DNA of 64,000 nucleotides. Origin: Actinomyces oris (GTDB lineage: Bacteria; Actinomycetota; Actinomycetes; Actinomycetales; Actinomycetaceae). The stretch covers positions 124,001-188,000 of the forward strand of contig NZ_MSGO01000005.1 in the NCBI RefSeq assembly GCF_001929375.1, given 5' to 3'. Positions 4,045 through 7,379 of this stretch are shown piece after piece. A model generated the notes under the pieces. It saw nothing but the letters and a program-made list of their open reading frames with translations, did not search any database and was not told the origin of the DNA. The translations under genes were made by a program, and so were the position numbers. How positions within the stretch are numbered: position 1 is the first letter of the stretch; every line of letters starts with the position of its first letter.

Positions 4045-4920
4045 TCAGTGAACCTCGAAGCCGTAGGAGCGGAAGATCGCGCGAGTGGACTCCACCAGCT
4101 CCGGCTCAGGAGGCCTGGTGTCGCGCAGCTGGTACGTCAGTCCCAGAGCGTCCCACTTGTCGGCGCCCATCTGGTGGAAGGGCAGCACCTCGACACGGCT
4201 GACCGAGCCCCAGCGCTCGATTATCCGGGCGACATTGTGGACGTTCTCAGGGTCGTCCGTCAGGTCTGGAACCAGCACGAACCGGGCCCAGATCTCGATC
4301 CCCTTGGCCGCCAGACGGTCACCGAAGGTAATGGTCGGGGCCAGGGACCGCCCCGTCACCTTCTTGTAGGTCTCCTCGTCGCCGCTCTTGACGTCGAGCA
4401 GGACCAGGTCGATGTCATCGAGCATCTCATCGCTGGCATTGGCCCCCAGGAACCCTGAGGTGTCGATGCAGGTGTGGATACCCATCTTCTTGGCGCCGGC
4501 CAGGAGCTTGCCCGCGAAGGCCGGCTGCATGAGGACCTCACCGCCCGACAGCGTGATCCCGCCCTTGGACGCGCGGAACACCCCCCGGTAGCGGCGCATG
4601 CGGCGGAGAAGCTCCGATGCCTCCACCGGCTCCCCGTCCTTCATGAGGAAGGTGTCGGGATTGTGGCAGTACTGGCACCGCAGGGGACATCCGTTGAGGA
4701 AGACCGTCATCCGGGTACCGGGACCGTCCACCGCGGTCACGAGCTCCCAGGAGTGGATCGAGCCCAGCTCACCATCGCGCATCCGGGCCAGGCGCTCCGA
4801 GCGCTGAAGGTCCGTCAGCTCCTCGAGCCCGCCGATACCCGCCCCGCGCAAGCGGGCGGCCGGGGCCAGGAAGTCCTGGTCCCGACCGCCGTCGCGCACG
4901 GTCGTCGTGGTCTGCGTCAT
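4045..4920 (-). CDS. pflA: Pyruvate formate-lyase activating enzyme (radical SAM)
   Basis: 291 residues. The radical SAM cluster motif is CPLRCQYC (C78, C82, C85; CX3CX2C), followed by HNPDTF as in PflA, then GGITLSGGE. PflA uses S-adenosylmethionine and a [4Fe-4S] cluster to place a glycyl radical on its partner. Here the substrate glycine is not in PflB but in the separate 81-residue protein encoded 23 bp upstream, so the pair should be a natural enzyme-substrate couple. A roughly 40-residue N-terminal extension precedes the core. Last gene of the pflB-glycyl protein-pflA cluster. Confidence 0.95.
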   Translation of the reverse strand: MTQTTTTVRDGGRDQDFLAPAARLRGAGIGGLEELTDLQRSERLARMRDGELGSIHSWELVTAVDGPGTRMTVFLNGCPLRCQYCHNPDTFLMKDGEPVEASELLRRMRRYRGVFRASKGGITLSGGEVLMQPAFAGKLLAGAKKMGIHTCIDTSGFLGANASDEMLDDIDLVLLDVKSGDEETYKKVTGRSLAPTITFGDRLAAKGIEIWARFVLVPDLTDDPENVHNVARIIERWGSVSRVEVLPFHQMGADKWDALGLTYQLRDTRPPEPELVESTRAIFRSYGFEVH

Positions 4921-4943: not shown

Positions 4944-5189
4944 TCAGGCCTGGGCGTGGAAGGTGCGGTGGAGAACGTCAAGCTGCTGCTCGCGAGTCAG
5001 CTTGACGAAGTTGACGGCGTAGCCGGAGACACGAACAGTGAGGTTCGGGTAGTTCTCCGGGTGCTCCATCGCGTCCTCGAGGGTGTTGCGGTCCAGGACG
5101 TTGATGTTGGCGTGGTACAGGCCCTTGACGCCGCCGTTGTCCTGACGCTGCGCCTTCATGGAGGCGAGGCGCTCTTCGTACGTGGCCAT
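4944..5189 (-). CDS. Stand-alone glycyl radical subunit (GrcA-like)
   Basis: An 81-residue protein matching the extreme C-terminus of full-length pyruvate formate-lyases: [20 protein letters not shown], then [11 protein letters not shown] with the radical glycine at G56, then [15 protein letters not shown]. Its first 20 residues ([20 protein letters not shown]) are unique and it has its own ribosome site (AGAAAGGGG). In Escherichia coli a similar protein (GrcA/YfiD) rescues damaged PflB. Here PflB itself lacks this segment, so the small protein probably supplies the only glycyl radical. Confidence 0.92.
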
Positions 5190-5264
5190 GGTGGCCCCTT
5201 TCTGAGGTGATGTTACCGATGTGTGAGAAATTGCTGCGGTGCGATCGGCCGGTGAGCGACTCGA

Positions 5265-7379
5265 TCAGATCTCGGCGCAGTCGTCGGGGACGAAGCCGGC
5301 GTCGAGAATGCCCACGAGGTTGGCGACGCGCTCGTCGAGAGTGCGGCCCAGTCCCTGCGGGGTGATCGTGTTGGTCAGCGAGATGCCGTCGAGGGCGTCG
5401 TTGTAGTCGAGCTTGCCGACGCTGAGCATCGAGGCGACCATGCCGTGGGTGTCCATCCCGTTCTCCGGGTTGGCTCCGGGCGAGAAGGGGGTGCCCTTCC
5501 GGTGCCCCGAGGGGAAGGAGCCGGTCGCCTTGCCGTAGACCACGTTGGAGGTGATCGTCAGCACCGACTGCGTCGGGATGGCGTCCCGGTAGAAGGGCTG
5601 GGCCTTGATCTTCGACATGATCGTGTGGACCACCGTGGCCGCGATGTCGTCAGCGCGGTCGTCGTCGTTGCCGTAGATCGGGAAGTCGCCCTCGGTGACG
5701 TAGTCGATCACCAGGCCGGTCTCGTCGCGAACCGGGGTGACCTTGGCGTACTTGATGGCGCTCAGGGAGTCGGCCACGATCGACAGACCGGCGATGCCGC
5801 AGCCCATGGTGCGCACGATCTCGGAGTCGTGCAGCGCCATCTCGATGGACTCGTAGGCATAGCGGTCGTGGCAGTAGTGGATGATGTTGAGGGCCTCGAC
5901 GTAGGTGGCCACCACCCAGTCGAGCATCTTCTCGTACTTGTCCCAGACCTCGTCGAAGTCGAGGGGGCCGTCGCCCTCGATGCCGGGCAGACCGGTGACG
6001 ACCTGCTTACCGGTCATCTCGTCGCGGCCGCCGTTGATGGCGTAGAGCAGGGCCTTGGCGGAGTTGACGCGGGCGCCGAAGAACTGCATCTGCTTGCCCA
6101 CGCGCATCGGGGACACGCAGCAGGCGATCGCGGCGTCGTCGCCCCAGTGCTCACGGATCTGCTCGTCGGCCTCGTACTGGATGGAGGAGGTCGTGATCGA
6201 GATGAGGGCGCAGAAGTCCTTGTAGCCCTGCGGCAGGTTCTCGTCCCAGAAGATCGTGATGTTCGGCTCCGGGGCCGGACCGAGGTTGCGCAGGGTCTGC
6301 AGCAGACGGAAGGAGGTCTTGGTGACCAGGGCACGACCGTCCTCGCCGAAGCCGGCGTCCGACCAGGTGGCCCAGTAGGGGTCGCCGGAGAAGATCTGGT
6401 CGTAGTCGATGGTGCGCAGGAAACGGGTGATGCGCAGCTTCATGACGATGTTGTCGATGAGCTCCTGGGCGCGGGTCTCGTCGATGACCCCGTTGCGCAG
6501 GTCGCGCTCGAAGTAGATGTCCAGGAAGCCGGAGAGGCGGCCGATGCTCATGGCGGCGCCGTCCTGGGACTTCACGGAGGCCAGGTAGGCGAAGTAGGTC
6601 CACTGGACCGCCTCGTGGGCGTTCTTGGCCGGGCCGGAGATGTCGTAGCCGTAGGAGGCGGCCATGACCTTGAGCTTCTTGAGCGCCTTGATCTGCTCGG
6701 AGTGCTCCTCGCGGTAGCGGGCCCAGTGCTCGGAGAAGGGCTCGTCGGCCACGGCGTCCTTGGCCTTCTGCTTCTCCTCGATGAGGAAGTCGACGCCGTA
6801 GAGCGCCACACGGCGGTAGTCACCGATGATGCGGCCACGGCCGTAGGCGTCGGGCAGGCCGGTGATGATGTGGCTCGAGCGCGCCGCGCGGATGCGCGGG
6901 GTGTAGATGTCGAAGACCGCGTCGTTGTGGGTCTTCCGGTAGCGGGTGAAGATCTTCTTGACCTCGGGGTCGACCTCCTTGCCCGCCTCCTTGATGGCGG
7001 TCTCCACCATGCGCCAGCCACCGTTGGGCATCATGGCGCGGCGCAGCGGGGAGTCCGTCTGCAGACCAACGACGACGTCGTCGTCCTCGCTGATGTAACC
7101 AGCAGGGAACGCGTCGATGTCGGCGGGGGTGTGGGTATCGACGTCGAGGATGCGGACCTTGCGCTCCTCGGAGAGGTAGTTCTTCTCCAGGGTGTCCCAC
7201 AGGCGCAGGGTCTTGTCGGTGGCACCGGCGAGGAACGAGGCGTCACCGTCGTAGGGGGTGTAGTTGCGCTGGATGAAGTCGCGGACGTCAATGTCCTCGG
7301 TCCACGGTCCGGTGACGAAGCCCTCCCAGGCGTCATTGCCGCTCGCCGTGGTGGCAGATGTTGTGACCTCAGTGGTCAT
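5265..7379 (-). CDS. pflB: Formate C-acetyltransferase core lacking the glycyl radical domain
   Basis: 704 residues. Converts pyruvate and CoA to acetyl-CoA and formate in anaerobic metabolism. The active-site cysteine pair is intact (C420-C421 in IACCVSPMRVGKQMQFFG). The protein ends right after NLVGILDAGFVPDDCAEI, where full-length homologues continue for about 70 residues to the RVSGYA radical loop. That part is encoded by the next gene, 75 bp downstream. The ATG at 7379 is chosen because GAGGAGG lies 6 bases upstream; longer frames up to 7451 lack support. First gene of the pfl cluster. Confidence 0.93.
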   Translation of the reverse strand: MTTEVTTSATTASGNDAWEGFVTGPWTEDIDVRDFIQRNYTPYDGDASFLAGATDKTLRLWDTLEKNYLSEERKVRILDVDTHTPADIDAFPAGYISEDDDVVVGLQTDSPLRRAMMPNGGWRMVETAIKEAGKEVDPEVKKIFTRYRKTHNDAVFDIYTPRIRAARSSHIITGLPDAYGRGRIIGDYRRVALYGVDFLIEEKQKAKDAVADEPFSEHWARYREEHSEQIKALKKLKVMAASYGYDISGPAKNAHEAVQWTYFAYLASVKSQDGAAMSIGRLSGFLDIYFERDLRNGVIDETRAQELIDNIVMKLRITRFLRTIDYDQIFSGDPYWATWSDAGFGEDGRALVTKTSFRLLQTLRNLGPAPEPNITIFWDENLPQGYKDFCALISITTSSIQYEADEQIREHWGDDAAIACCVSPMRVGKQMQFFGARVNSAKALLYAINGGRDEMTGKQVVTGLPGIEGDGPLDFDEVWDKYEKMLDWVVATYVEALNIIHYCHDRYAYESIEMALHDSEIVRTMGCGIAGLSIVADSLSAIKYAKVTPVRDETGLVIDYVTEGDFPIYGNDDDRADDIAATVVHTIMSKIKAQPFYRDAIPTQSVLTITSNVVYGKATGSFPSGHRKGTPFSPGANPENGMDTHGMVASMLSVGKLDYNDALDGISLTNTITPQGLGRTLDERVANLVGILDAGFVPDDCAEI

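Follow-up and report, generated by a model that had tools for sequence, protein, structure and literature searches.

In the 64,000-nucleotide stretch of Actinomyces oris DNA analyzed here (the window), pyruvate formate-lyase (PFL) is encoded in two pieces. PFL is a single protein in most bacteria and a key oxygen-sensitive enzyme of fermentation. Accounts of glycyl radical enzymes usually treat them as one chain bearing both the glycine and the cysteine, with GrcA regarded as a repair part. Here, the gene order on the minus strand is pflB, a gap of 75 bp, a small gene and pflA. The first of these (5265..7379) encodes the PFL catalytic body of 704 aa, as judged by its ORF and NCBIfam TIGR01255. 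The gap (5190..5264) contains the ribosome site of the small gene (AGAAAGGGG) and is in frame, apparently by chance. The small gene, grcA2 (4944..5189), encodes a glycyl radical subunit of 81 aa with Gly56 within RVSGYAVNF (ORF and NCBIfam NF008341), and pflA (4045..4920), which starts 23 bp past it, encodes a radical-SAM PFL-activating enzyme of 291 aa (TIGR02493, 302.1 bits, cut-off 231.75). These coordinates agree with a preliminary description of the locus, in which the small gene had been given its own ribosome site and N-terminus, with pflA next. PflA (window positions 4045-4920) has about 50 residues N-terminal to the start of the activase model match. In Escherichia coli, the grcA gene is not known to be adjacent to pflB.

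Comparison with family models and with full-length enzymes showed how the two pieces are related. PflB covered positions 1-681 of the 744 in TIGR01255 (1000 bits, cut-off 994.2) and has the body with the adjacent catalytic Cys-Cys pair of this family; C420-C421 was invariant in 58/58 rows of alignment A2. The glycyl radical domain (GRD), which TIGR01255 places within the same polypeptide, is not part of PflB, and the remainder is a separate ORF: the C-terminus of the body consists of a helix, ERVANLVGILDAGF, and a tail, VPDDCAEI, without the glycyl radical loop. The small protein matched TIGR01255 at 680-742 and belongs to GrcA2 (NF008341; 166.3 bits, cut-off 145), and a glycyl radical enzyme could be recognized from its RVSGYAV loop together with the radical-SAM activase gene downstream. 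In the alignment with full-length PFL that had been proposed at the outset, the body reached E. coli residue 693 (covering 9-693, plus its own 8-residue tail) and the small protein took over from residue 696 (homology to 696-756). The pieces also tiled against fused PFLs, the body stopping after '..NLVGILDAGF' and the small protein taking up at 'GLYHANINV'. Relative to fused PFLs, the short tail of the body and a leader of ~22 residues on the small protein (residues 1-22, 5124..5189, minus strand, by pattern match) were extra. At another locus, L094, the small protein was 100% identical to that of the window and the body 99%, which places the organism as an Actinomyces near A. naeslundii. A natural split of PFL at this locus was therefore confirmed, and the preliminary description was correct in stating that PflB keeps its active-site cysteines but ends before the GRD, and that this domain is a separate 81-residue protein with G56.

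It should be noted that pflB and grcA2 share one frame here, with one TGA and 25 codons between them. Such an arrangement could be produced by a sequencing or assembly error or by a decaying pseudogene, and it would also permit read-through of the TGA to yield a fused enzyme in some molecules, the more so as no second stop is present at this locus and a natural open-frame fusion exists (L127, below). We examined 92 split loci, which are not independent and include many congeners. Gap length modulo 3 was 0, 1 and 2 in 31, 33 and 28 of them, respectively, and the stop codon of pflB was TGA in 56, TAA in 29 and TAG in 7. Given this even distribution, the shared frame at the present locus looks like chance. 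Since neither the frame nor the stop codon is conserved, read-through of TGA as a conserved mechanism was rejected, and the formation of some fused enzyme in this way appears very improbable. The small gene started with ATG in 92/92 loci, and the ribosome-site match upstream of it had a mean of 4.7 bases, compared with 2.2 at random places in the same loci. The pflA gene was on the same strand in 88/92 and was not found at the other four (L106, L108, L124 and L181); two of these, L108 and L181, are cut off by a contig end.

Recurrence of the split bears on the error explanation as well. Split PFL was present in 25/25 genomes of the genus surveyed, and it is thus not an assembly error. Fetching by the small protein yielded 80 named loci, the best 80 of 585 candidates by query similarity, whose proportions are therefore no measure of frequency; separate genes were found in 48 of them, fused genes in 31 and a single open frame in one (L127). 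Only part of the body was present at two of the 48 separate-gene loci, L123 and L130. Among these best 80 of 585, split loci included those of Actinomyces, Schaalia, Trueperella, Arcanobacterium, Actinotignum and Varibaculum, and further genera of the split type were Corynebacterium, Propionibacterium, Dermabacter, Brachybacterium and Helcobacillus. The arrangement recurs in many actinobacteria. A sequencing error across the 75-bp gap, which the preliminary description had named as one way in which its reading could fail, was not seen, since the split recurs with varied stops and frames in both the genus genomes and the named loci, and the sequencing error was rejected on this basis.

Measures of selection pointed in the same direction. 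In 9 of 10 pairwise comparisons, dN/dS was 0.04-0.18 for pflB and 0-0.21 for grcA2; in the tenth, with L118 (Propionibacterium), it was raised in all three genes (0.34-0.42). Low dN/dS, together with the start codon and ribosome site that the small gene has of its own, argues against error and pseudogene alike, and the probability left for either is negligible. Codon adaptation, calculated against a reference of 282 codons only (EF-Tu), was 0.712 for pflB, 0.658 for grcA2 and 0.445 for pflA, the usage of the first two being near that of EF-Tu and that of pflA not. As the value of grcA2 lies slightly below the 95th percentile (0.666) of 80-codon stretches from other ORFs of the window, and the reference is so short, we consider codon adaptation as supporting evidence only.

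Whether the small protein is required depends on what else the organism and its relatives encode. The family name 'autonomous glycyl radical cofactor GrcA2', and the fact that E. coli GrcA is of such a kind, would suggest an ordinary GrcA-type spare part that repairs an intact PFL encoded elsewhere. However, searches of this draft genome (3.1 Mb in 95 contigs, with a tool-estimated completeness of 100%) found neither a full-length PFL nor a further PFL-type GRD, and PflB itself is without a GRD; the two Gly_radical (PF01228) matches of the genome correspond to the PflB and small protein halves. A full-length pflB elsewhere in the genome, the other finding that would have spoken against the early reading, was thus looked for without success. 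The small protein also scored only 84.4 bits against the E. coli GrcA model TIGR04365 (cut-off 170), and it differs from E. coli-type GrcA both in this curated score and in coexistence with a full-length PFL.

The same question was addressed in 213 genomes of the family. A split body was found in 157 of them and a fused PFL in 32 among the matches listed; of the rest, 6 had weak matches to other glycyl radical enzymes only, 1 had a weak partial match and 17 had none. The 157 comprise 132 genomes in which the split was seen by coordinates (118 among the 150 matches listed, the other 32 being fused, plus 11 and 3 from other surveys) and 25 in which it was inferred from E-values and match counts. 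GrcA2 was above the cut-off in 156/213 genomes, and one genome with a split body (G137, 79% complete) had no GrcA2 above it. None of the 32 listed fused genomes had GrcA2 above the cut-off, each having one GRD match. The comparison of split and fused forms suggested in the preliminary description thus showed the two to be mutually exclusive among the genomes searched. At the order level, matches at E<=1e-20 were present in 174 of 396 genomes, exactly one per genome, and 54 of these genomes exceeded the GrcA2 cut-off; two GRD matches at this threshold were found in 0/396. One would expect a spare part to occur alongside the enzyme that it repairs, whereas the small protein takes the place of a missing domain; the repair of an intact PFL elsewhere is accordingly highly improbable.

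Another possibility is that PflB is catalytically dead or specialised and that the GRD subunit serves a different glycyl radical enzyme. Some congeners (for example, G005 and G013) indeed have a further, more distant PFL-like enzyme, which carries its own GRD. In the present genome, no other PFL-like enzyme was matched, and the anaerobic ribonucleotide reductase encoded elsewhere belongs to another family. The invariant Cys pair, purifying selection and high codon adaptation also argue for a working PflB, so that only a slim chance is left to this explanation. Judged from sequence, the PFL of this organism would very probably be an active enzyme made of two obligate subunits. At this level, the first part of the early reading, namely that the split is natural and the small subunit obligatory, is well supported, whereas the cheap replacement that it proposed as the purpose was not shown. 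What resembles a spare-part arrangement seems to be the normal form of the enzyme in a large set of actinobacteria.

Two genera (g24 and g27) have both split and fused members, and their PFLs fall into two far-apart clades (L181 and L184 versus L064 and L063), suggesting that one form probably replaced the other and did not arise inside those genera. In a careful tree, two clean fused groups were nested within the split clade, namely Bifidobacteriaceae and a group of Cellulomonas, Sanguibacter, Rarobacter, Tessaracoccus and others, a placement that would suggest re-fusion. However, when the 37 split-type rows were constrained to a single clade, the log-likelihood was 15.6 lower and this topology was not rejected (AU test, 58 rows, p 0.289); hence, we do not claim re-fusion, with the exception of L127 (L127:1612-4092, Corynebacterium sp. 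Marseille-P4321). Here, no stop separates body and small gene, and body, gap and leader-GRD form one open frame of 827 aa in which the small gene still has its ribosome site and ATG. Such an arrangement reads as a fusion by stop loss, a sequencing error there being possible. We also considered an origin in which the spare part came first, from an ancestor with a fused PFL and an adjacent GrcA2, and rejected it, because no intermediate could be found in the 174 matching genomes of the order. The only arrangement seen that resembles such an intermediate was in Silvimonas terrae of the Pseudomonadota (L165:1787-4445), where a separate GRD ORF without a leader, 61 aa long when counted from its ATG, lies immediately between a fused PFL and pflA.

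Several other loci deserve mention. In Corynebacterium phocae (L130:3609-3926), grcA2 and pflA are kept, but tblastn recovers only 97 residues of PflB, from the C-terminal part of the body, which points to a decayed or deleted pflB. Actinomyces provencensis (L107:4188-6844) has a partial GRD match flanked by two ORFs matching pflA, each of 357 aa; this is either a tandem duplication or an assembly artefact. In addition, 1533 of 50,697 phage records, mostly named for Escherichia, Salmonella or Klebsiella, encoded a sequence resembling the small protein (tblastn, E<=1e-5); the closest matches were to short or unannotated records, which may contain host DNA.

A truncated form of the E. coli enzyme gives an indication of what a separate GRD has to achieve. 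The natural cut of the Actinomyces protein coincides with the artificial cut of E. coli tPFL, that is, PFL cut after residue 695 (1-695), and the study of that enzyme reports that YfiD binding to tPFL was undetectable by ITC, that the radical yield of tPFL with YfiD was 32-fold below that of oxygen-cleaved PFL (cPFL), that tPFL complexes, after activation, matched wild-type activity, and that both binding and activation in E. coli depend in part on the first 60 residues of YfiD (PMC8683613). Undetectable binding and the much lower yield imply that such pairing needs something extra and cannot be assumed; as the body in Actinomyces corresponds to a tPFL of natural origin, its small partner would have to surpass YfiD in binding and in being activated. 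The leader of this partner was conserved: the pattern [TS][YF][EDAQ][EDQ]R[LVMA]xxMKxxR, composed after the sequences had been inspected, occurred in 76/85 distinct small proteins, in which its R, M, K and R columns were conserved at 94-99%, and it was not seen in the C-termini of fused PFLs displayed in the alignments. In view of this conservation, its absence from the displayed fused C-termini and the role of the YfiD N-terminus, the leader is the best candidate for what is missing when E. coli YfiD meets the short body, and would probably provide affinity or access for the activase. We also considered whether the leader arose as a duplicate of the last helix of the body, as MAFFT superposed the two when small proteins were included (alignment A1). 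In a profile test against shuffled leaders, the median p was 0.23, and homology of leader and helix is not claimed.

A second, differently placed split was found in another class of the phylum, possibly Coriobacteriia at a guess. The sample consisted of 22 genomes with matches from two families (f32 and f53), and it covers matched genomes only. In 21/22, the PFL body ended at profile position 665-670 and the small protein spanned 655-665 to 743-744; no full-length PFL was found in the 22 genomes, G334 having a distant enzyme only. Two of these small proteins scored 167 and 168 bits against NCBIfam NF038360 (GrcA3; cut-off 158). The loci of this GrcA3 type (L202-L213 and L241-L261) resemble those of the GrcA2 type in having the PFL body and the GRD in neighboring separate genes, without full-length PFL in 21 genomes. 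They differ from them in that the break lies at ~665 instead of ~681 and the helix preceding the GRD sits on the small protein; no GrcA2 leader was seen, and the body ends in a new tail, which contains cysteines at 11 of the 12 loci read. In a body tree from a quick search, the 12 second-type rows formed one clade (100) on a long branch, apart from GrcA2-type rows and with fused lineages between. Considering the other break point and the other class, fission probably took place twice, and two independent events would be the simplest reading. Moreover, two PDB entries named 'Formate acetyltransferase', 38la and 38lb (687 and 739 residues), have a PFL match that stops before the GRD. As 38lb could be aligned through its tail to that of the L206 body, both may be natural split bodies of the second type, and structural work on such bodies may exist; none of the 32 sequence matches of the small protein was coded 38la or 38lb.

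With regard to mechanism, the GRD subunit would dock into the PflB barrel and supply the missing strand and the glycyl loop, by analogy with GrcA/YfiD in oxygen-cut E. coli PFL. PflA would then put the radical onto Gly56 of the small subunit, from which it would move to the Cys420/421 pair, and cleavage of pyruvate would yield acetyl-CoA and formate. The glycine at which O2 cuts would be carried by a replaceable subunit of ~9 kDa, so that damage could, as a hypothesis, be repaired by subunit exchange. For YfiD, the rationale given in the E. coli study is that a 14-kDa protein is cheaper than a 170-kDa one (PMC8683613). That the split as such makes oxygen damage cheap to repair is likewise a hypothesis. 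We took cytochrome bd as a marker of life with oxygen. It was present in 212/213 genomes of the family, irrespective of split or fused PFL, and in 2/22 genomes of the second group (21 with that split). This distribution does not support oxygen economy as a general driver of the split. We tentatively suggest, with somewhat less than even confidence, that PFL became at least twice, by different cuts, a permanently two-subunit enzyme with a disposable radical subunit: a ~9-kDa protein would be exchanged instead of a ~80-kDa chain after an O2 cut, and the leader, or the new tail of the body where the split is of the second type, would be the device for efficient docking and activation that is missing in the YfiD-tPFL pair.

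The small-protein families GrcA2 and GrcA3 are already catalogued in NCBIfam. No description of a natural split PFL or of GrcA2 was found in the open-licence literature searched (titles, abstract starts and passages; most subscription journals lie outside it), and the accessible parts of PMC11528403, PMC13252398 and PMC12288474 contained nothing on split PFL. Natural pairs of this kind provide a body and a radical domain that can be separately mixed, titrated and labelled, which opens docking, PflA-dependent activation, damage by oxygen and its repair to direct tests.

Finally, the arrangement can be compared with known radical enzymes. Class II ribonucleotide reductases use a different radical source. 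The split class II enzyme of Pseudomonas aeruginosa is also a radical enzyme in two pieces (PMC4520616), although its split is unrelated. Within NF008341, of which the small protein is a member, the name implies an autonomous cofactor, but here the protein is the only GRD of the enzyme. Our results suggest that, in these genomes, 'autonomous glycyl radical cofactor GrcA2/GrcA3' is a misleading name for what would be a required subunit. The closest parallel is E. coli GrcA/YfiD with cPFL or tPFL, where a separate GRD protein likewise gives the radical glycine in trans (PMC8683613); in vivo, PflB G734A reportedly gave intermediate formate with GrcA and none without it (PMC12338860). However, E. 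coli keeps a full-length PFL, whereas none was found here, and its GrcA is a 127-aa repair part with 60 disordered N-terminal residues, in contrast with the short conserved leader of the Actinomyces small protein.
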